Below are positions 1 to 24,198 of a DNA stretch of 24,198 bases, piece by piece. The DNA is from a bacterium (GTDB lineage: Bacteria; CAIWAD01): NCBI GenBank assembly GCA_030429345.1, contig JAUIFJ010000044.1:1-24198 (forward strand). Direction: 5' to 3'. Position 1 is the first letter of the stretch. Each line of letters begins with the position of its first letter. The position numbers were made by a program, and so were the translations under genes. The notes below the pieces were generated by a model, which was not told where the DNA came from, searched no databases, and saw only the letters and a program-made list of their open reading frames with translations.

Positions 1-312
1 CCTTGGCACTGTCCTTGGCACGGTCCCTGGCACCGTCCCTGGCACCGTCCCTGGCACCGTCCCTGGCACCGTGCCTGGCACCGTCCTTGGCACCGTCCCT
101 GGCACCGTCCCTGGCACCGTGCCTGGCACCGTCCCTGGCACCGTCCCTGGCACCGTGCCTGGCACCGTCCTTGGCACCGTCCCTGGCACCGTCCCTGGCA
201 CCGTGCCTGGCACCGTCCTTGGCACCGTCCCTGGCACTGTCCTTGGCACTGTGCGTGGCACTGTCCCTGGCACTGTCCCTGGCACCGTGCCTGGCACCGT
301 CCTTGGCACTGA
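1..312. repeat. 12-bp tandem repeat array, 26 units (left end)
   Basis: Twenty-six head-to-tail 12-bp units fill the first 312 bases without interruption. Three main variants alternate: CCCTGGCACCGT, GCCTGGCACCGT and CCTTGGCACCGT. The hexamer TGGCAC is present in every unit; variation is confined mostly to unit positions 1 and 3 and to the base after CAC (C, T or once G). From unit 7 on there is a loose 48-bp order (GCC, CCT, CCC, CCC types). All six frames are open because 12 is a multiple of 3, so the apparent Leu-Ala-Pro-Ser or Gly-Thr-Val-Pro tetrapeptide proteins are not evidence of coding. The array runs off the left edge, so its true length is unknown. A second array of the same family ends the window. 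Confidence 0.97.
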
Positions 313-435: not shown

Positions 436-2196
436 ATGTCCACGACAACCGAATCGACGAGCCTGACCCCCTTTTCCGAGATGGGGCTCAACAAGCGCGT
501 GCTCAAGGCCCTGGAGCGCGTCGGCTACGAGACACCGACACCGATCCAGGCCCAGGCCATTCCCCTGCTGCTGCAGGGCAGGGACCTGCTGGGGCAGGCG
601 CAGACGGGCACGGGCAAGACCGCGGCCTTTGCACTGCCCCTTCTGAGCCGGCTCAACCTGAAGCGGCTCGATCCCCAGGTGCTGGTGCTGGCCCCGACGC
701 GCGAACTGGCGATCCAGGTGGCGGAGGCCTTCCAGACCTATGCTCACGAACTCAAGGGCTTCCATGTCGTCCCTGTATACGGCGGGCAGGAGTACTACGG
801 GCAGACCCGGGCCCTGAAACACGGCGCCCAGGTGATCGTCGGAACCCCGGGACGCGTGATGGATCACATGCGTCGCGGTACCCTGGACCTGGGCGGGCTC
901 TCGACCCTGGTGCTCGACGAGGCCGACGAGATGCTTCGCATGGGCTTCATTGACGATGTCAGCTGGATTCTGGAACAGACTCCGCCCGAGCGGCAGACAG
1001 CGCTCTTTTCGGCGACCATGCCCAAGCAGATCCGCCTGATCGCCCAGAAGCACCTGCGGGATCCGGAACAGGTCACGATCCAGGTCAAGACGACGACGGC
1101 GGACACGATCCGCCAGCGCTTCTGGCCCGTCAGCGGCCTGCACAAGCTGGATGCACTGACACGGATCCTAGAGGCCGAGCCCTTCGAGGCCATGCTGGTC
1201 TTCGTGCGCACCAAGACCGAAACCGTCGAACTGAGCGAACGCCTGGCGGCACGCGGCTTCACGGCAGCCCCGCTCAACGGGGATTTTCCCCAGCGCCAGC
1301 GCGAACGGACCGTCGAGCAGTTCAAGTCCGGAGCCGTAGACATCCTGGTGGCGACCGATGTGGCCGCGCGCGGGCTGGATGTGGAACGCATCAGCCATGT
1401 GCTCAACTACGACATCCCCTACGACACGGAAGCCTATGTACACCGCATCGGTCGCACCGGTCGCGCAGGGCGCAAGGGGGACGCGATCCTCTTTGTATCA
1501 CCGCGGGAAAAGCGCATGCTCTTCGCCATCGAGAAGGCGACCCGCCAGAAGATCATGCGCATGGAGCTGCCTTCGACGCGGGAGGTCAACGACCTGCGCA
1601 TCCACAAGTTCAAGCAGGGGATCCTGGAGGCATTGGGGGGAGAAGGACTCGCCTTCTATTCCGGCCTGGTCGAGGACCTGATGCGCGAACACGATGTCCC
1701 GGCCCTCGAGGTCGCCGCCGCCCTGGCAAGGAAGCTGCAGGGCGATGAGCCCTTCCTGCTCGAGAACAAGCCCGCCCCCCGGACTCCCCGGGGTTGGGAG
1801 GAATCACAGAAGGGAGCGCCTGACAGGTCCGCCCGAGGCCCCCGTGGCCGGGGCCCCGAAGAAGGCATGGAGCGCTACCGGGTGGATGTGGGGCACAACC
1901 ACAAGGTTACGCCGGGACACCTGGTGGGAGCCATTGCCAACGAGGCGGGCATCGACGGGGCGCACATCGGGCGGATCCGGGTGCACGACGAGTACTCCAC
2001 GGTCGAGCTGCCCGAGGGCCTGCCGGCGGACGTCGCTGCAGGGCTGAGAAAGCTGCGCGTCCTCGGCCATGCCCTGGGCCTGACGCTGATCCGTGATACC
2101 AAGCCGCTGCGCAGGGGCAAGCGCGGCGGAACCCACACCCAGGGCTTCCGCAAGTTCATGCAGAAGAAGCGCAAGGGCGGACCGCGGCAGGGCTAG
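436..2196 (+). CDS. deaD: DEAD-box ATP-dependent RNA helicase with DbpA-type RNA-binding tail
   Basis: 586 residues. The ATP-dependent RNA-unwinding core is complete: Q-motif region PTPIQ at 34-38, Walker A AQTGTGKT at 55-62, PTREL at 87-91, GTPGR at 136-140, DEAD at 161-164, SAT at 192-194, ARGLD at 311-315 and HRIGRTGR at 336-343. A basic, Gly/Arg/Pro-rich linker (about 447-475) leads to a DbpA-like RNA-binding domain (about 478-550) and a Lys/Arg-rich tail. This architecture fits the DeaD/CsdA family, which acts in ribosome assembly and mRNA turnover at low temperature; DbpA is the alternative, since it shares the last domain. The start was chosen because the Q-motif lies at the expected distance. 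The stop codon shares the CTAG at 2193-2196 with the convergent msrB. Confidence 0.95.
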
Positions 2197-5337: not shown

Positions 5338-5451
5338 AGTGGACGTGTGGAACAGTTGCGGTGGAAGGATTCGCCCGTACTCTCATCCTCCATCTTCCCT
5401 CCGACTGCCTTACCTTCCATTCAAACGCTTTCCCCTTTGATCGATCCACCC

Positions 5452-6195
5452 ATGCAACTGGCCGATTTCAGCAATCACTTCGACTCGCTTGCCTCGCGCT
5501 GGGACCAGTCCGCCTGGCTGGCCGAGGAACGGGACCTGGAGCAGGCCCTGCGTCTGCTGCAGCCACGACGCCGCGAAACCGGCCTGGACCTGGCCTGCGG
5601 ACCGGGGCACCTGTCGACGCGCCTCGCCGCCGAGGGCAGCCGCGTGCTGGCGGCCGACATCAGCCCGCAGATGCTCAAGTTCTGCGCCCATCGCAGCACG
5701 GAGGCCGGCCAGAAGAACCTGACCATCGCCGTGCAGGACGCCCATCGCATGGAGTTCGGCGACGGCATGTTCGACTGGATCTCCTGCCGCCTGGGCTTTC
5801 GCTACTTCGAAGAGCCGCGGCGCGTGCTGGCGGAACTGAAACGGATTCTGAAGCCCTCGGGGCGGATCTGGCTCAGCGACTGGATCCGCGATCTTCCGGG
5901 CGGCAAGACGCTCACCCTGAGCGAGATGCTGCGAAGCCTTCATGCGGCCCAACAGACTGTCCATTCCATGGAGGAGTGGGAGAAAGCGGTTCGGGAGAGT
6001 GGATTCCGCATGCTGCGCCAGACTCCGCGTCCCGACCGCCTGGACCCCGTCGAGCTCGCGCATCTGGGCGGCACGGACAGCGAGGATGCGGTCGCCGCCA
6101 GCCGCGAACTGGCCGGCCCCGACGCCCGCTGGCTGGAGCTGGAAGGCCGTTCCTACCTGCTGGTGCAACGGCTGGATCTGCTGCTGGGGATTTAG
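5452..6195 (+). CDS. Class I SAM-dependent methyltransferase (UbiE/Methyltransf_11-like)
   Basis: 247 residues. Motif I is LDLACGPGH at 45-53, the acidic residue that usually binds the SAM ribose is D69 in AADIS, and the downstream motifs are FDWISCRLGFRYF (107-119) and LKPSGRIWLSDW (133-144). These define a Rossmann-fold small-molecule methyltransferase; the substrate cannot be inferred. ATG 5452 was chosen because family homology begins directly after it; an upstream in-frame start at 5275 would run through the dispersed repeat. No ribosome binding site is visible before 5452, so the start is somewhat uncertain. The gene stands alone, with one copy of an 18-base repeat on each side. Confidence 0.88.
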   Translation: MQLADFSNHFDSLASRWDQSAWLAEERDLEQALRLLQPRRRETGLDLACGPGHLSTRLAAEGSRVLAADISPQMLKFCAHRSTEAGQKNLTIAVQDAHRMEFGDGMFDWISCRLGFRYFEEPRRVLAELKRILKPSGRIWLSDWIRDLPGGKTLTLSEMLRSLHAAQQTVHSMEEWEKAVRESGFRMLRQTPRPDRLDPVELAHLGGTDSEDAVAASRELAGPDARWLELEGRSYLLVQRLDLLLGI

Positions 6196-6224
6196 TCCTC
6201 CATCCCAGTTCCCCACACACGAGT

Positions 6225-6250
6225 GTCATCCCGCGGCTTGACCGCGGGAT
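6225..6250 (+). repeat. Dispersed REP-like hairpin, copy 2 (complete)
   Basis: Perfect 9-bp arms ATCCCGCGG (6228-6236) and CCGCGGGAT (6242-6250) enclose the loop CTTGA. The first 18 bases from 6225 are identical to 5320-5337. It lies between the convergent methyltransferase and radC genes and could also serve as a transcription end, although no T-run follows. Confidence 0.82.
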
Positions 6251-6297
6251 CTTTCTCCGCGCCGCAGGCCGGAGGACTTCAGCTAGCGCCCCCTATT

Positions 6298-6951
6298 CTA
6301 TTCCACCAGCAGCCCGTTCTCCTGGAAGCTGAACCAGCCTCCCGGGGCGATGATCAGGTGATCGAGAATGCCGATGCCCATTACGCGGCTGACAGCGAGC
6401 AGCTGGCGGGTCAGGGCGCGGTCCTCGGAACTGGGCTGTGTGCCGCCGCCGGGGTGGTTGTGCGCCAGGATCATCGCCGCGGCGCTGTACTGGATCGCGT
6501 AGTGGAAGACCTCCCGCGGGTGTACCAGGCTGGCGTTGAGCGTGCCGATGCTGATCACCTCTTCGCGGATCACCCGGTTCTGGGTGTTCAGATACAGGCA
6601 GCGGAACTGCTCGCGGGCCAGGCGGCCCATCGGCTCGAGGAAGCTGGCGCAATCGGCGGGACTGCGCAGAATGGGAAACTCGCGGCTGCCCGGATCATAG
6701 AGGCGCCGGCCCAGTTCCAGGGCCGCCCCCAGCTGGCAGGCCCGCGCCCGCCCGATGCCGTAGCTGCTCATCAGCTCGCGCACGCTTCCGCGCGAGGCAA
6801 TGCCTTCGGCGCCATAGGAACCGGCAATCCTTCGGCCCAGCTCGAAGACGTTCTCCCGGCGGCTGCCGCTGCCCAGGACGACGGAGATCAATTCCGGCAG
6901 GCTCAGTTCGCCGGCTCCCTGTGTCATCATTTTCTCGCGCGGTGATTCCAT
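6298..6951 (-). CDS. radC: RadC family protein (JAB/MPN metal-binding domain)
   Basis: 217 residues, normal for the RadC/UPF0758 family. The N-terminal half (about 15-85) carries the helix-hairpin-helix-like part (YGIGRARACQLGAALELGRR), and the C-terminal half carries the JAMM metal site: a glutamate at 130/131, H164-N-H166-P, then S174-x-x-D177. The metal residues look intact. The biological role of RadC remains unsettled; the historical link to repair is weak. ATG 6951 with GGAAGGGAG upstream was preferred over a TTG 15 bases further upstream, which lies within that ribosome binding site. It is divergent from tatD, with about 200 bases of shared upstream DNA. Confidence 0.94.
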   Translation of the reverse strand: MESPREKMMTQGAGELSLPELISVVLGSGSRRENVFELGRRIAGSYGAEGIASRGSVRELMSSYGIGRARACQLGAALELGRRLYDPGSREFPILRSPADCASFLEPMGRLAREQFRCLYLNTQNRVIREEVISIGTLNASLVHPREVFHYAIQYSAAAMILAHNHPGGGTQPSSEDRALTRQLLAVSRVMGIGILDHLIIAPGGWFSFQENGLLVE

Positions 6952-7155
6952 GACGCTCCCTTCCAAGGCAATCTAGCCTCATCCCGGACAGGGGCGAAGC
7001 CTTTTCCCGGGGCGGACGCCGGCACCCTTCCGGAGTGTCCAGCCCGCCTGGCAGATGGCGCGAAGTGAGCGCCTGTCCAGCCCCTTGTGCGGGTGCGCAC
7101 TTCCTATATTCCGGCAGGCGGGCGCTGGCGCCCACAGGTCTTGTCCGGAGAACAC

Positions 7156-7938
7156 ATGCTGATCGACACGCACGCACATCTGGATTTTCCCGGCTTCGAC
7201 GAGGACCGCGAGCAGATGCTCGAGCGCTGCTGGCAATCCGGCCTGCGGGCCGTGATCCAGGTCTGCTTCAATCGCCAGACCATTGCGCGCGGCTTTCCCC
7301 TCTTCGAAGAGGACCCGCGCATCTGGTTCGCGGTCGGCCTGCACCCCCAGGCCGCCGACGAGTACGACGAAGAGACCCTGGCCCTCGTGGAGGAGAAGAG
7401 TACTCACCCGCGCGTGGTCGCCATCGGCGAGTGCGGCTTCGACCGTTTCCGGGACTATGCCAAGGTGCCCAACCAGGAAGCCTGCTTCCGCGGGATGATC
7501 CGCCTGGCCAGGCGGCGGAAGCTGCCCCTCGTGATCCACAGCCGCGACGCGAAGGAGGACACCCTGCGTGTCCTGCGGGAGGAGCATGCCGAAGAGGTCG
7601 GCGGCGTGATGCACTGTTTCTCCTATGACCTGGAGACGGCGCTCGAGGCGATCGAGCTGGACTTCTGCATCAGTTTCCCCTGTTTCGTGACCTATCCCAA
7701 GCGCAACCAGGCGGAGGTTGTCGCCGGCCTGCCCCTCGACAGGATCCTGCTGGAGACGGACAGCCCCTTCATTCCGCCCCAGCGTATACGCGGCAAGCGC
7801 AACGCCCCGACGGGCATCATCGATTCGGCGGAGGCCATCGCCGCCATGCGGGGCATCCCAGCGGAGGAGGTGATCCAGGCGACGGGACGGAATGCCTGTC
7901 GCCTCTTCGGCATCGCTCCGCCGGAAGGCCCGGCCTGA
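7156..7938 (+). CDS. tatD: TatD family metal-dependent hydrolase / DNase
   Basis: 260 residues, the usual length. All expected metal ligands are visible: H6 and H8 in DTHAHLD, E92 in GECGFD, H128 in VIHSRD, H153 in MHCFS and D202 in LETDSPF. Known TatD proteins act as magnesium-dependent 3'-5' exonucleases in DNA repair or fragmentation; YcfH- and YjjV-like relatives are alternatives. ATG 7156 is supported by GGAG six bases upstream. Before it lie a TATATT hexamer (7105-7110, possible -10) and a small hairpin GGGCGC-TG-GCGCCC (7120-7133). The last base of the stop codon is the first base of the rsmA start (TGATG), so translation is probably coupled. Confidence 0.95.
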   Translation: MLIDTHAHLDFPGFDEDREQMLERCWQSGLRAVIQVCFNRQTIARGFPLFEEDPRIWFAVGLHPQAADEYDEETLALVEEKSTHPRVVAIGECGFDRFRDYAKVPNQEACFRGMIRLARRRKLPLVIHSRDAKEDTLRVLREEHAEEVGGVMHCFSYDLETALEAIELDFCISFPCFVTYPKRNQAEVVAGLPLDRILLETDSPFIPPQRIRGKRNAPTGIIDSAEAIAAMRGIPAEEVIQATGRNACRLFGIAPPEGPA

Positions 7939-8786
7939 TGCCGGCCAAGTCCTACAAGAGCCTGCAGCCCAAGAAGAGCCTGGGGCAGAACTTCCTGACG
8001 GATCCCTGGTGGATCCAGCGCATCGTCAGCGCCATCGGCCTGGATCACGACGAGCGCGTGCTCGAGATCGGACCGGGCAAGGGCGTGCTCACCGAGCCGC
8101 TGCTGTCGCACGCGAACCAGGTCTTCGCCGTCGAGATCGACAGCCGCATGGTGGGCCACCTGGAAGAGCGTTTCGCCGACGCGCCCAACCTGCGCATACT
8201 GCACGAGGATTTCCTCAAGCTGGACCTGGCCGGGCAGATCGGTCCCGGCCCGCTGCGCATTGTCGGCAACCTGCCCTACCACGTGACCAGCGGGATCATC
8301 GGGGCCGTGCTCGACGCCATCCGGCGAAACCACGAGGGAGCCGAAGACGGTCCGCGTATCACGGGCTTTGACATCATGATCCAGAAGGAGGTCGGGCAGC
8401 GCATCTGCTCCCCGCACGGCAACAAGGTATACGGCGTGCTCTCCGTCCTGGCCAACCTGCTGTGCGACGTGCGCATCGCCCTGGATGTTCCGCCCAAGGC
8501 CTTCAGCCCGCCGCCCAAGGTGCAGTCGAGCATCCTGCACTTCCACCCCCTGCCCGCCATGCGCTACCCGCTTGCCGACTGGGACCTGTTCCGCGCCATC
8601 GTGCGCTGCGCCTTCAACCAGCGCCGCAAGATGCTGCGCAACAGCCTGGCAGGAAGCGCGTCTCCCCTGCGGGACGGCGAGCTGGAACACATCGGCAGCG
8701 ACCTGCTGGAACGGCGGCCGGAATCCCTCAGCCCCCGCGAGTTCGCCGAACTGAGCAACCGGATCCACGGGGGCCGCGGTGAGTGA
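7938..8786 (+). CDS. rsmA: 16S rRNA (adenine-N6) dimethyltransferase RsmA (KsgA)
   Basis: 282 residues. This enzyme dimethylates two adjacent adenines in the 3' terminal hairpin of 16S rRNA (A1518 and A1519 in E. coli numbering) late in small-subunit assembly. Visible motifs are SLGQNFL at 14-20, the SAM site LEIGPGKGVLT at 42-52, the catalytic NLPY at 111-114, and the C-terminal FSPPPKVQS and RRKMLRN segments. The start overlaps the tatD stop by one base, and the end overlaps mgtE by eight bases, placing it inside a tightly coupled operon. Confidence 0.97.
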   Translation: MPAKSYKSLQPKKSLGQNFLTDPWWIQRIVSAIGLDHDERVLEIGPGKGVLTEPLLSHANQVFAVEIDSRMVGHLEERFADAPNLRILHEDFLKLDLAGQIGPGPLRIVGNLPYHVTSGIIGAVLDAIRRNHEGAEDGPRITGFDIMIQKEVGQRICSPHGNKVYGVLSVLANLLCDVRIALDVPPKAFSPPPKVQSSILHFHPLPAMRYPLADWDLFRAIVRCAFNQRRKMLRNSLAGSASPLRDGELEHIGSDLLERRPESLSPREFAELSNRIHGGRGE

Positions 8787-10134
8787 ACACGGCGAAAGCC
8801 TGGACCCCGCCCTGAGCCGCGAGGACTTCGAGGACTACGAGCGCGCGGAGCTGGAAGAGCTCATCGGCCAGCATCGTCCCGGCGACCTGGCCCTGCTGCT
8901 CAACCGCGTCGACGACGAGGCGGCGGCGGCGCTCTTTGCCGTCATGTCTCACGAAGTGCGGGCGGAGGTGCTGCCGGACCTGGACGAGCGCCGCCGGGAC
9001 TCGCTGATCGCGGAGATGCCTGCCAGCGAGATCGGCGAGATCGCCGGGGAGATGGATTCCGACGACGCCGCCGACCTGGTCCAGGACCTGCGCGAGATCG
9101 ACGAGGCGCGTGCCGAGGACGTGCTTTCCGGCCTGGACGAGGAACAGCGCAGCGATGTCGAGAGCCTGCTGCTCCACGAGGAGGACACGGCGGGCGGAGT
9201 CATGGCCAGGGAGCTGGCCTGGGGGGCGCTGGACGAGAGCGTCGAGGACGTGATCGGGCGCATCCGCGAGCTGTCGCGGGACCGCGAGGTCGACGATCTC
9301 TACGTGGTCTACGTGGTCGACAAGGGCCATCGCCTCGTGGGGTGGATCAGCCTGCAGGGCCTGCTGCTGGCGCCCCGCGGGCAGCGGATGGAGCAGCTGC
9401 AGAACCCCGACGTGGTCTCGGTCCCGGTGACGCTGGACAAGGAGGACCTGGCGGCGGTCGCCATGAAGCACGACCTGCCTTCCGTCCCCGTCGTGGACGC
9501 CGAGGGGGTGCTGCTCGGCCGTGTCACAATGGACGACGTCTACGACATCGTCGAGGAGGAGGCCGCCGAGGACATCGGCCGCATTTCCGGCACCGACGAG
9601 GACGTGCTCGAGCACAGCAGCCTGGCCGTGATCCGCCAGCGCCTGCCCTGGCTGCTGGTCGGCCTGGGCGGCGGGCTCTGCGCGGCGATCGTCATGTCGG
9701 CCTTCGAGGCCACCATCAGTCGCAGCCTGCAGGCGGCCTACTTCGTGCCGATCGTCATGGGCATGGGCGGCAGCGCGGGTATCCAGTCGAGCACGATTGT
9801 CGTACGCGGCCTGGCCACCGGCGAGCTCCAGGTGGAGGACCTCTGGCTCCGGCTCTGGCGCGAGCTCAAGGTCAGCCTGGCCGTCGGCCTGGTCTGCAGC
9901 CTGGTGCTCGGCGCCATCGTGCTGGCCTGGTTCGGAGAGGCGCGGGACGCGCTGACCGTCTCGCTGAGCCTGCTCTGCGTGATCCTGCAGGCCACGGTGC
10001 TCGGCGCGGCCACGCCCCTGCTGCTCAAGCGCACGGGCGTCGATCCGGCGATCGCCACGGGGCCCTTCATCACGACGGGCAATGACATTCTGGGCGTGGG
10101 CCTCTACCTGGGCCTGGTCCACCTCTTTCTCTAG
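8779..10134 (+). CDS. mgtE: Magnesium transporter MgtE
   Basis: 451 residues, normal for MgtE, a Mg2+-gated inner-membrane magnesium channel. Order of parts: an acidic N-terminal superhelical domain (about 30-130, with repeats such as LADDL-like helices), paired CBS domains (about 135-255, ending VTMDDVYDIVEEEAAED), then a membrane domain from about 290 with roughly five hydrophobic spans. GMGGSAGIQSSTIVVRGLA corresponds to the signature usually written GGNAGxQSS; Ser replaces the common Asn. An Asp in TTGNDILG fits the pore-lining aspartate. The start is GTG at 8779, eight bases inside rsmA, with GGGGG upstream. The stop is followed directly by the next gene's ribosome binding site. Confidence 0.95.
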   Translation: MSEHGESLDPALSREDFEDYERAELEELIGQHRPGDLALLLNRVDDEAAAALFAVMSHEVRAEVLPDLDERRRDSLIAEMPASEIGEIAGEMDSDDAADLVQDLREIDEARAEDVLSGLDEEQRSDVESLLLHEEDTAGGVMARELAWGALDESVEDVIGRIRELSRDREVDDLYVVYVVDKGHRLVGWISLQGLLLAPRGQRMEQLQNPDVVSVPVTLDKEDLAAVAMKHDLPSVPVVDAEGVLLGRVTMDDVYDIVEEEAAEDIGRISGTDEDVLEHSSLAVIRQRLPWLLVGLGGGLCAAIVMSAFEATISRSLQAAYFVPIVMGMGGSAGIQSSTIVVRGLATGELQVEDLWLRLWRELKVSLAVGLVCSLVLGAIVLAWFGEARDALTVSLSLLCVILQATVLGAATPLLLKRTGVDPAIATGPFITTGNDILGVGLYLGLVHLFL

Positions 10135-12732: not shown

Positions 12733-13674
12733 TCAACCACCACTGCCCTGGAGATAAAGTGAACGGACCTCTACGAGTGTGAGGGCCCTGGTGAAGAACT
12801 TCAATTCATCAATTGCGCCGTGAAAGTATCCATTCGGCGTTCCCCATCCTTGTATGTAAACACGTCCTATGGAAAGGGGCGCAGATCCAGATAGTCCGCC
12901 GATATCTCCTTGTCCTTGGCCAGAGATGTTTCCATTGACGTAGAGTCTTGTATTACGATCTACACCATCCAATGTTCCGACAAGGTGCGTCCACTCTTCA
13001 AGTGGAATTGTTTCGTCATGGGAAATGCCTACGTGCTCACCTCCGGAGTCGCGAACCACCCAACCTGGAAACCCATTGTTGATTGGGATATGATACATGG
13101 ACAAACTTTGATTATTGCAAGGGTTTACAATGCCACAGTTGTACCAAGAAGCAATAAACTGCTGACCCTCCAGAGACTCCGCTTTTACCCAAACGGAGAT
13201 TGTCCATCCATTGCTTGGATCAAAATGTGGATATGTCGGTCTCTCAAGATAGCTGGACTCGCCGTTCAGTGCTACCGCTTGGCCTGTTAATCCATCTATG
13301 TAGCTACAGTTGTAATTTGACAAGTGAAACAGATTTCCAGTGCTGTCCTCTGTGTTTCCTTCAAACGAGTATGCTGCATAGGCATCTGAGGGTATGTTGA
13401 ATAAATCGCAATCCTCCGACAGTTGAATCTTAAGCAGTGTAGCCCCCAATTGATTCGAACTCAGTGTATACGAGTTGATGGTTGGAGCAACGCTGCTTAT
13501 CCACTCGTACGGATTAACACCAACCTGTCTATATATGTCAATGCATGTACTCGCACTGGCAGACTCCCATGTAAGAAGGATGGTACTATCACTTGAAACT
13601 TGGATACCTAGCTCGAGTGGTTCGCAAATGGTAGCAGAGACAAATGTTAGTATTGCTAAGGCGACAGTTCTCAT
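12733..13674 (-). CDS. Secreted LamG/concanavalin-like domain protein in an AT-rich island
   Basis: 313 residues. The N-terminus MRTVALAILTFVSATIC is a signal peptide; Cys17 follows Thr-Ile, so a lipobox is doubtful. Residues about 20-80 resemble a fibronectin type III fold (STILLTWESASAS, IDIYRQVG). Residues about 98-310 are a LamG/concanavalin A-like jellyroll: AYSFEGNTEDSTG, GWTISVWVKAE, EEWTHLVGTLDG, TRLYVNG, and FHGAIDELKFFTRAL near the end. Such domains bind carbohydrate or act as adhesive modules; the ligand is unknown. AAGGGAG upstream supports the start. No C-terminal sorting domain follows, unlike the other two large secreted proteins here. G+C is visibly much lower than in the neighbours (some 60-base stretches are below 40%), indicating recent acquisition. 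Confidence 0.85.
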   Translation of the reverse strand: MRTVALAILTFVSATICEPLELGIQVSSDSTILLTWESASASTCIDIYRQVGVNPYEWISSVAPTINSYTLSSNQLGATLLKIQLSEDCDLFNIPSDAYAAYSFEGNTEDSTGNLFHLSNYNCSYIDGLTGQAVALNGESSYLERPTYPHFDPSNGWTISVWVKAESLEGQQFIASWYNCGIVNPCNNQSLSMYHIPINNGFPGWVVRDSGGEHVGISHDETIPLEEWTHLVGTLDGVDRNTRLYVNGNISGQGQGDIGGLSGSAPLSIGRVYIQGWGTPNGYFHGAIDELKFFTRALTLVEVRSLYLQGSGG

Positions 13675-14749: not shown

Positions 14750-17134
14750 CTATTTCACCAGCAGCAGTTTTCGTGTATCACGACGGTTTCCTTCTTCCAG
14801 CACGACCAGGTAGAGGCCGCTTGCCGATTTGCCGCCGGAGAAGACGAACTCGTGCCGACCGGCGGAAAGCCTGCCGCTGTGCAGTTCGCGGACCAGCGCT
14901 CCACGGCTGTTGTAGACGGCCAGGCGTGCCTCGGCATCCCGGTCCATGGCCACCTGCAGGGTGGTCGTCGGATTGAAGGGGTTGGGCCAGGCGCGCTGAA
15001 TGCCGAAGGCCTGCGGCAGTTCCTCGTGTTCCACGCCGATGCTGGCCAGGGCGCTGACGCTCCCGTCCAGCCCGATCTCGAGAATCGTATACTGGATCAC
15101 GCCGGCCGGCGGATCCTCGTCGACCCAGAAGTAGCTCGCGCCCTCCGCGCCGCCGGTCGCCGGCACCACGCCGGAGACCGTCTGGTTGCCGCGCTGGATC
15201 ACGAAACCGCTGATGCCGGATTCGCCCAGGGTGCTCCAGTCCAGGCGCACGGTGCCCAGCTCCGTGCTGACTCCGTTCAGGCTCTGCAATTCGACCGCGG
15301 CCGCCACCTGCTCCTCGATGCAGCTCTCGGCCGTGGCGCTGACCTGCTGCCCGCTGTCGCCGGTATCATGCAGCAGTTCGCCTTCCTGGGCGACGCTGAA
15401 AACCGGACCGTAGGCACCATCCAGCCAGAAGCGCAGGTTTCCCATGCCTTCCACCAGCACCGTCGAATAGTTCCCTTCCGCATTTCGCTGCAGGGTCGCG
15501 CGCCAGCTGTTGCCCTGGTAGAGGCGGGCCTGCGAGGGGCCGTTCTCGACCTGAAGCGTGACACGGGGAGCGCAGACGCGCAGGTCGTGCAGCTCGCCAT
15601 TCGCCGGCTGGACGCTTTCGGTGAAGACGCCGATGCCGTGGCGGACCAGGTAGGCGCGCACCGTGGCTCCGGGGACGACATCGTGATGCAGTTCGCTCTG
15701 CGGATTCGCCAGCGGGAAGTTGCTGCGCCAGCTGTTGCCCTGGTAGAGCCGCACCTGGTCGAAGGAGACCGGATCGCAGCTTTCCGTGTCGAGGGCGATG
15801 TCGAAGTCGACCAGGTCCATGCGCGTGTCCGCTCCCTCCGCATCTGCCGGGCGGCAGGTCTGCGTGTAGGCGCCGATGCCGTTGAGGATCACGTAGGCCC
15901 GCAGGTCGACCCCGTCCACCACATCGATGTGATACTTGCCCGCATCGCCCGGCAGCCCGAGGTTCGAGCGCCAGGAGGTGCCCTGGTAGAGCCGCACCTG
16001 GTCGACGTTCCGGCGATTGCCTCCCTGGACCGGGCTGGCATGGACATCCACCCGGTAGTCGACCAGGTCGTAGCGCAGGTCGGTCTGCTCCGAGTCGGCG
16101 GGCAGGGCGCTTTCCGTGTAGGCGCCGATGCCGTTCTTGATCACATAGGCGCGCAGGTCCACCCCGGGCACCACATCGATGTGATACTCCTTCAGCACCT
16201 CGTCGAGACTGAAGGTGCTTCGCCAGGAGCTTCCCTGGTAGAGCCGCACCTGGTCCACGCCGCGCTTCCCGCCTCCGGCGAAGGGACTGGCGTGGACATC
16301 GACGCGGAAATCCACCAGCTGCAGCTGGCCGTCCACCTGGTCGCTGTCCGCCGGTCGTAGCGCCGCCGCATAGGCGCCGATGCCGTTCTGGATCACATAG
16401 GCGCGCAGGTCGACTCCGTCGACCACATCCACATGATAGGAGCTGTCGGAAGCCTGGAAGCCGAAATTCGTGCGCCATGAGCTTCCCTGGTAGAGGCGGA
16501 CCTGGTCCACGGAACGCGGATGGCCGCCGGCGCGGGGACTGGCCAGCACCTGGAAGCGGAAGTCGACCAGGTCGTAGTCCACGTCCACCTGGTCGCTGTC
16601 GGCAGGGCGCACGGTGGATGTATACGCGCCTATGCCGTTCTTGATCACGAAAGCGCGCAGGTCGACGCCGTCGACCACATCGATGGAATAGGAGCTGTCC
16701 GCCTGGTTGTAGGCGAAGTTGGATCTCCACGAGCTTCCCTGGTAGAGCCGCACCTGGTCGACGGAGCGCGGCAGGCCGCCGGCCTGGGGGCTTTTGTTCA
16801 CGCGCATGCGGAAATCGATCAGCTGCACGCTGCCGCCCAGGGCTTCATTGGAACCGGAGATGCCGTCCTTGATCACTCGGGCGCTGCTGACCGCCGGCTC
16901 GTCGAACTCGAAGAGCCCGTTGCCCAGGAACACCGCCGTGTCGACCCAGGAGCTGCCGTTGTATCCGCGCACCTGTATTCCGTCGGCCGCCTGGATCGGC
17001 GTGCCGTCCGAGAGCAGCACCTCGATCTGGTTCGCTTCGAGGGCCCATGCGGCAGGCGCCGACAGGAAGAGGTAGGGCAGCGCCCACCACAGGGCGAGTC
17101 CGGATCTATCGAGTGTGATTCCTCCGCGCTTCAT
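14750..17134 (-). CDS. Secreted protein with ~84-residue RLYQGxSWR repeats and C-terminal sorting domain
   Basis: 794 residues. Residues 1-31 form a signal peptide (APAAWA). The motif RLYQG recurs at 129, 213, 297, 381, 462 and 537, with a diverged RGYNG at 56; the spacings are 73, 84, 84, 84, 81 and 75. Typical units read VDQVRLYQGSSWRSNF, then HIDVVDGVDLRAYVIKNGIGAYT, a PADSxQ turn and LVDFRVDV. Residues about 610-705 look like a fibronectin type III segment (VRLDWSTLGESGISGFVIQRG). Residues 715-794 are the AWPNPFNPTTT plus FlgD-like tail used for type IX-style sorting. The start at 17134 has GGGAG about eight bases upstream and places the signal peptide at the N-terminus. I do not recognise the repeat family; surface display or adhesion is only a guess. 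Divergent from citF. Confidence 0.88.
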   Translation of the reverse strand: MKRGGITLDRSGLALWWALPYLFLSAPAAWALEANQIEVLLSDGTPIQAADGIQVRGYNGSSWVDTAVFLGNGLFEFDEPAVSSARVIKDGISGSNEALGGSVQLIDFRMRVNKSPQAGGLPRSVDQVRLYQGSSWRSNFAYNQADSSYSIDVVDGVDLRAFVIKNGIGAYTSTVRPADSDQVDVDYDLVDFRFQVLASPRAGGHPRSVDQVRLYQGSSWRTNFGFQASDSSYHVDVVDGVDLRAYVIQNGIGAYAAALRPADSDQVDGQLQLVDFRVDVHASPFAGGGKRGVDQVRLYQGSSWRSTFSLDEVLKEYHIDVVPGVDLRAYVIKNGIGAYTESALPADSEQTDLRYDLVDYRVDVHASPVQGGNRRNVDQVRLYQGTSWRSNLGLPGDAGKYHIDVVDGVDLRAYVILNGIGAYTQTCRPADAEGADTRMDLVDFDIALDTESCDPVSFDQVRLYQGNSWRSNFPLANPQSELHHDVVPGATVRAYLVRHGIGVFTESVQPANGELHDLRVCAPRVTLQVENGPSQARLYQGNSWRATLQRNAEGNYSTVLVEGMGNLRFWLDGAYGPVFSVAQEGELLHDTGDSGQQVSATAESCIEEQVAAAVELQSLNGVSTELGTVRLDWSTLGESGISGFVIQRGNQTVSGVVPATGGAEGASYFWVDEDPPAGVIQYTILEIGLDGSVSALASIGVEHEELPQAFGIQRAWPNPFNPTTTLQVAMDRDAEARLAVYNSRGALVRELHSGRLSAGRHEFVFSGGKSASGLYLVVLEEGNRRDTRKLLLVK
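15335..16984 (-). repeat. Tandem 252-bp coding repeats inside the secreted repeat protein
   Basis: This stretch encodes residues about 51-600. Three consecutive intervals between RLYQG motifs are exactly 84 codons (252 bp), with diverged copies at both ends. The inner copies keep QVRLYQGSSWR, DVVDGVDLRAYVI and NGIGAYT almost unchanged, whereas the stretch after the SWR motif varies freely. This is the pattern expected of duplication followed by selection on a structural core. Confidence 0.9.
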
Positions 17135-17321
17135 GCCTGTCTCCCTGGTCGTGGCTTCCCTTGCGGACAGAGCGGTCGCTCTATGCCCGCCCCGTTTCTG
17201 GCAAGCGCCGTGCCGAAAGCGAACTGCAACAGGAACAGCCATCTCGGCAGGATTGACGGCGGGCCACTCTTCATCAAATGGCCCGAAGCGGGGCTTTTCC
17301 CCCGAAATTGCTCTCGCGCAA

Positions 17322-20068: not shown

Positions 20069-21175
20069 ATGCAAGGCATGAAAGCTGTTGGACTGGGTCT
20101 GCTGGCTGCGTCGATCGCGCAGGCCGAGATCCGCATTTCGGAAGTCTTTTACGATCCCGCCGGATCCGATGGCGGCGGGGAATGGATCGAACTGAGCAAC
20201 CTGGGGCAGGAAGCCGTGGATCTGGAAGGGTGGGTGCTCGACGCCTCGGGACCGAACCTGGTCCTGCCCGCGCTGGTCCTCCCGCCGGGACAGGTCGCCG
20301 TGATCCACAGCAACGCCGCGGAAAGCATCGCGCCCCAGGGCCTGTCCCTGTGGTTCGGGAATGGCACCAACATGGGCAACACCCACGGTTTCGTCGGTCT
20401 CTGGCGCGCCGAGCCGCAGAACCTGGACAACCTGGTGGATTACATGGAGTACGGTTCCGGCGGCCACAGCTGGGAAGGCCTGGCCGTCGAGGCCGGCCTC
20501 TGGCCGGAGGACGGTTTCGCCCCGGATGTGGACTCCGGGAGCAGCCTGGTGCGCCTCTTCGGCGGAGAGGGGCCGCAGGACTGGATTCCGGAGTCCGAGC
20601 CCCAGGCGGGCAACGGCGAGACGGCGGTGGGGGAACTCTTCCAGCCCGGCCTGAGGCTGGAGAACGGGCAGGTCCTGCTGGAATGGCGATTCCAGGGCGA
20701 GGCCCTCTCCTTCGAAATCCATGGAGCGGAGCGGGGCGATCTGCCGACCCGGCTGCAGCAGGTGCCCGCCAGGGAGGATGGCGACTACCGCTTCCGTGAT
20801 GCAAGGCCGCGGCCGGAGGGCTGGAGCTACTGGCTGCATGTGCGACGCCCCGGCGGTCGGCTGGAAGAGCTGGCGGGACCCTTCTCGCTGAGCGAGGCCG
20901 CCGTGATGCCGACAGGCACTCGCATCGTGGGCGCCTGGCCGAATCCCTTCAACCCCGAGACGAGGCTGGGCTTCGACCTGGCGCGCGCGGGCAAGGCGGA
21001 GGTCGAAGTCTTCGACCTGGCCGGACGCCTGGTCCATCGCCAGGGGACGGCGACCCTGGAGGCCGGACGCCACAGCCTGAGGCTCAACCTGGAGGACAAG
21101 GCCGGAGGCCCCTACTTCGCCCGCCTGAGTTCGGGCGGGCAGCAGTCCGTGGTCCGCATCCTGTTGATCAAGTAG
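20069..21175 (+). CDS. Secreted lamin-tail-domain protein with C-terminal sorting domain
   Basis: 368 residues. MQGMKAVGLGLLAASIAQA is a signal peptide. Residues about 20-140 form a lamin-tail (LTD) domain: IRISEVFYDPAGSDGGGEWIEL, then LEGWVLDASG and LPPGQVAVIH. A middle part (about 195-280) looks like a beta-sandwich (VLLEWRFQGEALSFEIHG). The end (about 285-368) is AWPNPFNPETRLGFDL plus a FlgD-like fold closing with RILLIK, the same kind of sorting tail as in the repeat protein. GGAAAGGAAAG precedes the ATG. LTD domains are often linked to extracellular nucleases or surface proteins, but no nuclease domain is present here, so the role is unknown. A clear terminator follows. Confidence 0.88.
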   Translation: MQGMKAVGLGLLAASIAQAEIRISEVFYDPAGSDGGGEWIELSNLGQEAVDLEGWVLDASGPNLVLPALVLPPGQVAVIHSNAAESIAPQGLSLWFGNGTNMGNTHGFVGLWRAEPQNLDNLVDYMEYGSGGHSWEGLAVEAGLWPEDGFAPDVDSGSSLVRLFGGEGPQDWIPESEPQAGNGETAVGELFQPGLRLENGQVLLEWRFQGEALSFEIHGAERGDLPTRLQQVPAREDGDYRFRDARPRPEGWSYWLHVRRPGGRLEELAGPFSLSEAAVMPTGTRIVGAWPNPFNPETRLGFDLARAGKAEVEVFDLAGRLVHRQGTATLEAGRHSLRLNLEDKAGGPYFARLSSGGQQSVVRILLIK

Positions 21176-21259: not shown

Positions 21260-23950
21260 ATGCGCGCTGCAAGGAGAGGAGGGAACCGGAGCCTGGCGAT
21301 GTCTGCCATCGCGAGCCTGTTCTCCCTGCTGCTCGCCCTGGCGGCGATTGCTAGCGAACCAGCGGCGGCTGGCCTCGAGCTGCTCGAGTTCAGTCTGCCC
21401 CATGTGGACCAGCAGGAGTTCCTGGGGGCATCCGCTCTTCCACCTGCAGCTTCCTCCGACAACGGGCAAGCGCTCGGCCTGGTCCTGACCGGCGGCGGCG
21501 GCCGCGGCTTCTTGCAGATCGGGGCCCTGAAGGCTCTCGACGAGGCCGGCATACCCCTGCACTGCATCGTCGGCACCTCGATGGGCGCCGTGATCGGCGG
21601 GCTCTACGCGGTCGGATATGCGCCGGACCAGATCCAGGAAGAGCTGACCCGCTACACCTGGGGCGAGCTCTTCAACGACAGCCCGGATCGCCTGGACATG
21701 TATACCGGCACCAAGGAGATCGTCGACCGGCACCTCTTCCAGCTGCGCTTCCGCAAGGGCCTGCCAGAACTCAAGCGCAGCTTCTCCAGCGGTCAGCGTG
21801 TCACCCAGATTCTTTCGCGCCTGATCCATCGCGCCCCACGCCGCGGCTTCGGCCATTTTGACGAACTCCTCGTGCCCTACCGGGCCATGGCGACCGACCT
21901 GGTCACGGGCCGGTCCGTGGCCCTCGAGCGGGGCGACCTTTCCAGCGCCATGCGCGCATCCATGTCGATCCCCCTGCTCTTCAGTCCCGTGGTCCGGGAC
22001 AGCATGCTGCTGATCGACGGAGGGATCACGGCCAATATTCCTGTCCAGGCCGCCCGCGCCCTGGGGGCCGAACGAGTACTCGTCGTCGATGCCACCAATC
22101 CCTTGAGGCGCGCCGAGGAGATCCGCGAGGCCTGGGAAGTGGCCGACCAGGTGATCGGCATCATGCAGGAGCGGAAGAACCGGGAGGCCCTGGCCAAAGC
22201 GGATCTCGTCCTGCGGCCCGAGATGGGACACAGCACGCTGGGTTCCTTCGACAACCTCGGGGAGGTGGTCGAAGAGGGCTACCGGGCCATGCGTGAAGCC
22301 CTGCCGCAATTAAAACAGCTGCTGGAAGAGGAAAGCCCGCCGGACACCCTTCTTCCCGGGTGGGACCTGGTGCGCATCGAGGGCGATCCGGCGCCCTTCC
22401 GCCGCCTGCCTCCTCGACAGGAGCCGATGGGGAAGCGCGCGCTGCGCCAGATGCTGATCGAAAGCTGCGACTGGGGCACCTTCCAGTCCGCGCGCTGCGA
22501 CCTGCTGCGGGAGGTGGAGGGCGGGGGCGACACGCTCGTTGTATTACGCATCCGTACTCGAAGCTGGCCCCAGGTGGAAGAAAGCCGCCTGCATTTCCGC
22601 GGCACGCGCCCGGAAGTGGAGCTGCCCGGGCTCGAGGACCTGAAGGGCGTACTCAACCGGAACCGGCTGCAGGACAAGCTGCAGTCGCTCCTGGGAATGC
22701 TGCGCTCCGAAGGCTACAGCCTCTGCACCGTGGACAGCCTGAGTCTTGCGATGGGTCGCCTGAACATCTACCTGGATCCGGGCCGCATCGAGGAGCTGCG
22801 TGTCGAGGGCCTGCGCCGCGTGAGCCGCCGCCGGGTGCTGGCCGAGTTCCGACCGGGCGAGGGGGAGCTCTTCCGCCTGCCCGTCGCGGAAGCGGGAGTG
22901 CGCCGCCTGCACGGCACCAATCTCTTCGAAAGCGTGAGCATGGCTCTTTCGCGCGAGCCGCGGAAGACCGTCGTGATCCATGTGGAGGAGAAGAGCAATC
23001 CTGTCCTGCGCTTCGGCCTGCGCTGGTCGAGCGCTCGGGAAGGGCAGGGCTTCGTCGAACTGGATCACGAAGCGCTGCTGGCGGGCTACATGAGAGGGTC
23101 GTTGTATACTTCCTATGGAGCCTACGACCGGCGGAACAGCCTGACCCTGAACAGCGATCGCATCCTGAGCAGCCTCTGGACTGTGCGCCTCGAACTGATC
23201 GACGATCAGCATGTGCGACACTGGCGCGGCATGGCCCCGGCAACCGCGCCCCGCCGTGTCGAGCGCATGGAGCAGAAAGCCCTGCTCAGTTTTGGCCGCC
23301 AGTGGCAGGGCCTGGGGACCGTCTATGTCGATCTGGGTCTGCGTCGCATCTCGGAGGAGTACGCCGGCAGCCGGCAGGACTGGCTGGCGCACGCTCTTTC
23401 CCTGCGCAGCATTGTCGACAGCCGGGACCGGATCGGATTGCCGACTCATGGCGAACTGCATGTGGTGGAGCTGAGCAATGTGCTCGAGGCCCTGGGAAGC
23501 GACGACAGCTACCTGGGCCTCAAGGCACGTTTCGATTCCTGGCGCACGCTGATGCGCCTCACCCTGCACAGCACCTTCCTGTGGAACTACCAGGACAGCC
23601 CGCCTCTTCTCGATCGCACTCGCCTGGGCGGGGGCGACCTGCTCCGCAGCCAGGATCTCGAAGCGCTTCAGGGGGCGCAGGCCGGGGCCATCGGGCTGGA
23701 GGCGCGCTGGCGACTGGCAGACAGCGATCTAGGCCCCTGGTACCTGGGCTGCGCCTGGCGCATGGTGGCCCTCAACGATCGTCCCCAGTTCGAGTGGCGC
23801 GCCGAAGACCTGCGGCAGGACTTCAGCGCGGCCCTGTCCGTACACACCCTCGCCGGCCCCCTGGAAGCCGGCGCCGCCCTGGCCAGCGAGCGCCGCCCGG
23901 GCGATTCCCGCTGGCGGCTGTGGGCGGAACTGGGGTTTGTTTTTCCGTAA
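21260..23950 (+). CDS. Patatin-like phospholipase with POTRA domains and outer-membrane barrel (type Vd secretion)
   Basis: 896 residues. The Arg-rich N-terminus and [13 protein letters not shown] form a signal peptide, which favours ATG 21260 over an in-frame ATG at 21299 that would lack the basic residues. The patatin domain (about 70-320) has the oxyanion segment GGGGRG (78-83), nucleophile S107 in GTSMG and partner D253 in DGG, so lipase or phospholipase activity is expected. Two POTRA-like modules follow (about 440-505 and 508-580; the second runs from [13 protein letters not shown] to [13 protein letters not shown]). The rest (about 580-896) shows alternating barrel strands and ends ELGFVFP. 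This matches PlpD/FplA-type Vd proteins, which export their own lipase, but it is longer and appears to have two POTRAs. The target lipid is unknown. Confidence 0.92.
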
Positions 23951-24010: not shown

Positions 24011-24198
24011 GCTTGGCACCGTCCTTGGCACCGTCCCTGGCACCGTCCTTGGCACCGTGCCTGGCACCGTCCTTGGCACCGTCCCTGGCACCGTCCTTGG
24101 CACCGTCCTTGGCACCGTCCTTGGCACCGTGCCTGGCACCGTCCTTGGCACCGTGCCTGGCACCGTCCCTGGCACCGTCCATGGCACCGTGCCTGGCA
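24011..24198. repeat. 12-bp tandem repeat array, at least 15 units (right end)
   Basis: Fifteen full units and eight bases of a sixteenth run off the right edge. The unit family and orientation are those of the left-end array, and TGGCAC is again invariant. The mix differs: the CCTTGGCACCGT type dominates and one unit reads CCATGGCACCGT. The array begins 60 bases after the patatin gene stop. Minus-strand frames through it, such as Thr-Val-Pro-Gly repeats running back into the patatin gene, are open only because the period is a multiple of three. Confidence 0.97.

Follow-up and report, generated by a model that had tools for sequence, protein, structure and literature searches.

Fibrillar adhesins consist of tandem stalk domains combined with an adhesive domain (PMC8286594). 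In the fibrillar proteins of Gram-positive organisms, which carry a sortase signal, CnaB and SpaA domains serve as stalk domains (PMC8286594, PMC12617251). The CnaB isopeptide domain is characterized by a conserved Lys in the first strand, an Asn or Asp in the last strand, and a Glu (PMC12617251). The periscope proteins (SasG, Rib and Sgo_0707) are surface proteins with near-identical DNA repeats, and the number of their tandem domains differs among relatives (PMC8201768). A further domain to be considered is CarboxypepD_reg (PF13620), which belongs to the transthyretin clan (CL0287).

We describe here a gene of an uncultured bacterium, from a window of 24 198 nucleotides (the whole stretch of DNA that was analysed). 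As in fibrillar adhesins, its product is built of tandem units, seven in number, which could themselves bind; however, no known adhesive family, nor any known enzyme or adhesive module, was found in the 794-residue protein with Pfam and NCBIfam. Like the CnaB/SpaA proteins, it appears to be an exported array of predicted β-sandwiches, and CnaB is among the structural neighbours of the unit, but it ends in a type IX (T9SS) tail instead of a sortase signal. Further, no position is occupied by Lys in all of the units R1–R4 (Table 1), which argues against an isopeptide cross-link. The number of units differs among relatives (seven versus four) as in periscope proteins, yet R1–R4 are only 63–73% identical in pairwise nucleotide comparison (62–72% at the protein level), and the number differs between genera rather than between strains. 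The change has therefore been slow, with no sign of rapid recombination. The CarboxypepD_reg domain is of similar length, resembles the β-sandwich of seven strands that is predicted for the unit, aligns with the unit end to end and in register, and also occurs in tandem in another T9SS-tailed frame of this genome. Nevertheless, neither the complete protein nor any of 11 units matched PF13620 in Pfam, and the CarboxypepD_reg rows that we compared do not have the QxRLYQGxSWR signature of the units.

Gene layout and repeat units

The gene is complete, and its features are listed in Table 1. An alternative in-frame ATG is located upstream at 17242 and would add 36 residues ahead of the signal peptide; a start at this codon is less likely. 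An earlier note on this DNA had proposed an exported protein with a signal peptide and a type IX-style tail. The tail was recovered as a match to TIGR04183 over its cut-off, and sprA is present in the genome, so that the type IX export route is genuine; a putative signal peptide is clear by eye. Scores of the tail against the Pfam families PF13860 and PF18962 were slightly below cut-off. Residues 612–705, which we take to be an Fn3-like linker of the type customary ahead of T9SS tails, did not match any entry in Pfam.

Table 1. Features of the repeat gene, with positions in the window and residues of the encoded protein.
Feature	Residues	Length	Position	Strand	Basis or remark
Complete gene, one open frame		794 aa	14750..17134	minus	codes for the seven units, preceded by the putative signal peptide and followed by the linker and T9SS tail
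Putative signal peptide	1–31		17042..17134	minus	read by eye from the sequence: basic N terminus, then hydrophobic LALWWALPYLFLSAP and a cut site at AWA
Unit R0	34–105	about 72 aa	16820..17035	minus	diverged; profile E 5.9e-16; groups with first G002 unit, support 0.98
Unit R1	106–189	84 aa	16568..16819	minus	alignment and profile
Unit R2	190–273	84 aa	16316..16567	minus	query of structural model
Unit R3	274–357	84 aa	16064..16315	minus	alignment and profile
Unit R4	358–441	84 aa	15812..16063	minus	alignment and profile
Unit R5	442–522	81 aa	15569..15811	minus	profile E 7.6e-34; pairs with third G002 unit, support 0.87
Unit R6	523–597	about 75 aa	15344..15568	minus	profile E 1.1e-21; pairs with last G002 unit, support 0.87
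Fn3-like linker	612–705		15020..15301	minus	sequence pattern, by eye
T9SS type A sorting domain	716–791		14762..14989	minus	TIGR04183, 24.3 bits (cut-off 23)

The RLYQG motif lies at residues 129, 213, 297 and 381, with a spacing of exactly 84, and recurs at 462 and 537. One diverged copy, RGYNG, starts at residue 56. Self-alignment of the protein gave a score of 885 at offset 84, compared with a best score of 46 in 40 residue shuffles (offsets 20–299), so that the repeat is far beyond chance. By alignment and profile searches, seven tandem units were delimited. The diverged copies that the note had placed on both sides of the regular repeats correspond to R0 before them and to R5 and R6 after them.

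No sequence family covering the unit was found in Pfam, NCBIfam, PHROGs or the PDB sequences. Marginal matches to Qn_am_d_aII, CPSase and sortase were short and spanned part of one unit only. The repeat had been regarded as undescribed, and indeed no significant profile match extends across the full 84 residues. The unit family is thus new in sequence, being absent from the libraries searched, and the kind of protein is ordinary.

Several candidate relatives were rejected. A phage origin of the gene was dismissed upon finding no match among phage records or viral contigs. Loci from Zixibacteria and Bacteroidetes match the linker or tail only, not the units. For the YYDGSW repeat family, a candidate relative, real members were found, but the profile comparison stayed at the level of shuffled columns. 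The YYTGTW-type repeats of another genome (locus L041, on G063:C34) also consist of units of about 80 residues and show a look-alike [RY][LY]Y.G.W motif; however, the profile comparison of the L041 repeats with the units was no better than with shuffled columns. As judged from these comparisons, the YYTGTW resemblance may be convergent, or the relationship may be too distant to show. When the profile of the YYTGTW array (L041, 1–2364) was compared with CarboxypepD_reg, it scored better than all 50 of 50 column shuffles.

Predicted fold and variable segment of the unit

AlphaFold predicted a seven-strand β-sandwich for a single unit (12-row alignment; pLDDT 79.9, pTM 0.70). Prediction of the whole array from a single sequence gave a pLDDT of 33 and no usable model. 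The best Foldseek match of the unit model was 4v4c_B (E 1.7e-3, TM 0.53). In the structural comparison, the top rows were SleC and a chain of the hydrazine dehydrogenase complex (Z 7.3). Transthyretin, 5-hydroxyisourate hydrolase (HIUase), CnaB and the C-terminal domain of carboxypeptidase N scored at Z 6.0–6.5, rows of the Ig type at Z 5.8–6.5, and the carbohydrate-binding modules CBM41 and CBM20 appeared with weak scores. As no row is outstanding and all Z values are below 8, the model is taken no further than a β-sandwich that is probably transthyretin-like, the fold class being suggestive only. The unit profile was also compared with one built from 23 real CarboxypepD_reg domains of these genomes. 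It aligned in register with a score of 12.07, which 3 of 100 column shuffles equalled or exceeded, so that the link in sequence is weak.

The segment following SWR had been described as different in every copy, as in binding repeats with a variable face. The first part of this description applies to unit positions 36–43, which differ in nearly every unit and fall in a loop predicted to join strands three and four. The second part found no support: loops (18 of 36) and strands (25 of 48) contain invariant positions about equally often, so that the variability has no loop bias, and mean pN does not exceed mean pS in the variable segment (about 0.40 and 0.49, compared with about 0.24 and 0.48 elsewhere in the unit). 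Positive selection was not seen in the variable loop, pN not being consistently higher than pS. The sequence comparisons thus point to a relaxed segment shaped by ordinary loop drift rather than by diversifying selection, and they provide no evidence of binding.

T9SS exports, distribution of the gene and evolution of the units

The sprA gene for the SprA/Sov translocon (TIGR04189 over cut-off) was identified in each of the phylum's five genomes, the genome of the window (G000) and four relatives. In G000 it is a frame of 2313 codons. About 150 places in this 4.2-Mb genome match a T9SS-type tail, and its T9SS export repertoire is very large. A frame of 1325 residues (G000:C22, minus strand, about 5395–9258) contains at least seven CarboxypepD_reg matches and a T9SS tail, and hence sets a precedent for such an architecture in the organism. 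The repeat protein adds a domain family with a predicted fold to the T9SS cargo of a little-sampled phylum that is rich in such exports.

The unit profile matched 2 of roughly 430 genomes, G000 and G002, which represent different genera of one family. There was no match in the other 288 of the 290 genomes in the relatives search, nor in 132 genomes of the phylum to which the Zixibacteria locus belongs, and no paralogue of the gene was found in G000 itself. The G002 copy is located between rex and a citF-like gene, at the same site and in the same orientation as in the window. It comprises four units, with a frameshift inside the second unit and a TAG codon at the end of that unit, both of which could be assembly errors. 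In G003 and G004, which belong to the same genus as G002, rex is followed directly by citF with no gene between them. The gene is therefore accessory, as a single family includes one genome with it, one in which it seems broken and two without it. In G003, an unrelated, apparently exported protein of 588 residues is encoded after citF (L030, 4775–6541); the window shows no such gene between citF and rpsD. The spot after citF is perhaps an insertion site for exported genes.

In a tree of the units, R0, R5 and R6 each pair with one G002 unit (Table 1) and are thus positional orthologues of these. The second G002 unit has its best match to R1–R4 (42–46%). From the tree and this match it follows that either the central unit multiplied here from one copy to four or its number was reduced in G002. 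Pairwise comparison of R1–R4 yielded pS values of 0.41–0.55 and pN values of 0.20–0.32. Hence the duplications did not happen recently, and purifying selection acts on the units.

Candidate roles of the array and coordinated residue changes

The gene most probably encodes a lineage-specific, T9SS-exported fibrillar surface protein which acts as a stalk and/or a multivalent binder. The signal peptide, as read from the sequence, would send the protein through Sec, and the C-terminal type A domain would direct it to the cell surface via the SprA translocon. A seven-strand β-sandwich is predicted for each unit. The chain appears to enter and leave the unit at opposite ends, so that the seven units would form a rod, perhaps 25–30 nm long, standing off the cell. 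By analogy with fibrillar adhesins, this rod may serve as a stalk, bind a polymer or neighbouring cells in a multivalent manner, or do both. Its length would change by duplication of the central unit, of which there is one in the sister genus and four here. The unit has been kept under selection, as pN is well below pS over it. No operon partner suggesting a function was found. The gene is dispensable, since G003 and G004 lack it and the G002 assembly carries a broken copy, and this counts against the surface rod.

Four unit positions differ between the two genera in a coordinated manner. Trp occupies position 31 throughout the seven units here, whereas the four units of G002 have His, His, His and Tyr. 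Position 62 is Gly in 7/7 units here, and Tyr, Tyr, Tyr and Ala in G002. Gln-22 and Arg-24, likewise invariant in the seven units, are kept by none of the four units of G002 in this alignment. Given the positional orthology of R0, R5 and R6, separate units either acquired identical replacements in parallel or received them by conversion.

These changes are what a change of ligand would predict, and it is possible, though doubtful, that each unit is a small ligand-binding domain, for instance a carbohydrate-binding one, with the array providing avidity for a polymer and a patch of Q22, R24 and W31 on strands B and C forming the site. The invariance of these residues and of G62 over all seven units would fit, as would the structural neighbours CBM41 and CBM20. 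However, transthyretin- and CnaB-type domains score equally high or higher, a Pfam search with the protein and the units yielded no CBM profile match, the conserved positions may be plain core or interface residues, and in G002 the gene may be in decay.

Cargo of the T9SS may be released from the cell or anchored to it. A secreted matrix or structural protein, associating side by side with itself through a conserved face instead of forming a stalk, would agree with release, and the high similarity between units and the gene-wide uniform residues fit homotypic packing; but the tail and the architecture suit anchored proteins equally, and we regard such a protein as improbable. That the gene is a non-functional remnant or a mis-assembly, a repeat expansion in a gene under loss, is suggested by the G002 frameshift and stop and by the absence from G003 and G004, but is very hard to reconcile with a window copy that is intact over 794 codons with all units in register, pN well below pS and intact export signals.

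Returning to the fibrillar surface protein, the predicted strand order places residue 31 just past one loop pole of the unit and residue 62 in a turn, presumably at the other pole. In such a rod, residues 31 and 62 of neighbouring units could meet. A gene-wide code, in which positions 22, 24, 31 and 62 change together in every unit through contact of residue 31 with residue 62 of the next unit or through a shared ligand, is a tentative idea that we consider unlikely. If true, it would provide a small natural system in which an inter-domain interface evolves in concert, within a T9SS surface fibre made of a new domain family. As the sample is small, with seven units from one gene and four from the other, the coordinated change is an observation, not a tested pattern. 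It poses a concrete question on the evolution of tandem surface domains; apart from it, the protein is a typical lineage-specific surface protein.

Elsewhere in the window, a lamin-tail-domain protein with a T9SS tail is encoded at 20069–21175, and G004 and G002 have similar proteins close to this locus. A patatin-like phospholipase with a weak match to an Omp85-type barrel (PlpD-like) is encoded at 21260–23950, and such a protein is likewise seen near the locus in G004 and G002. Shortly before rex, on the minus strand at 12733–13674, lies the gene for an apparently exported protein with a LamG/concanavalin-like domain, for which Pfam reports no T9SS tail. At both ends of the contig (window positions 4–309 and 24012–24198), the same 12-bp tandem array is found, consisting of TGGCACCGTCCC and variants in 25 and 16 copies respectively. 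The assembly therefore broke at this repeat family, which may be dispersed in the genome.
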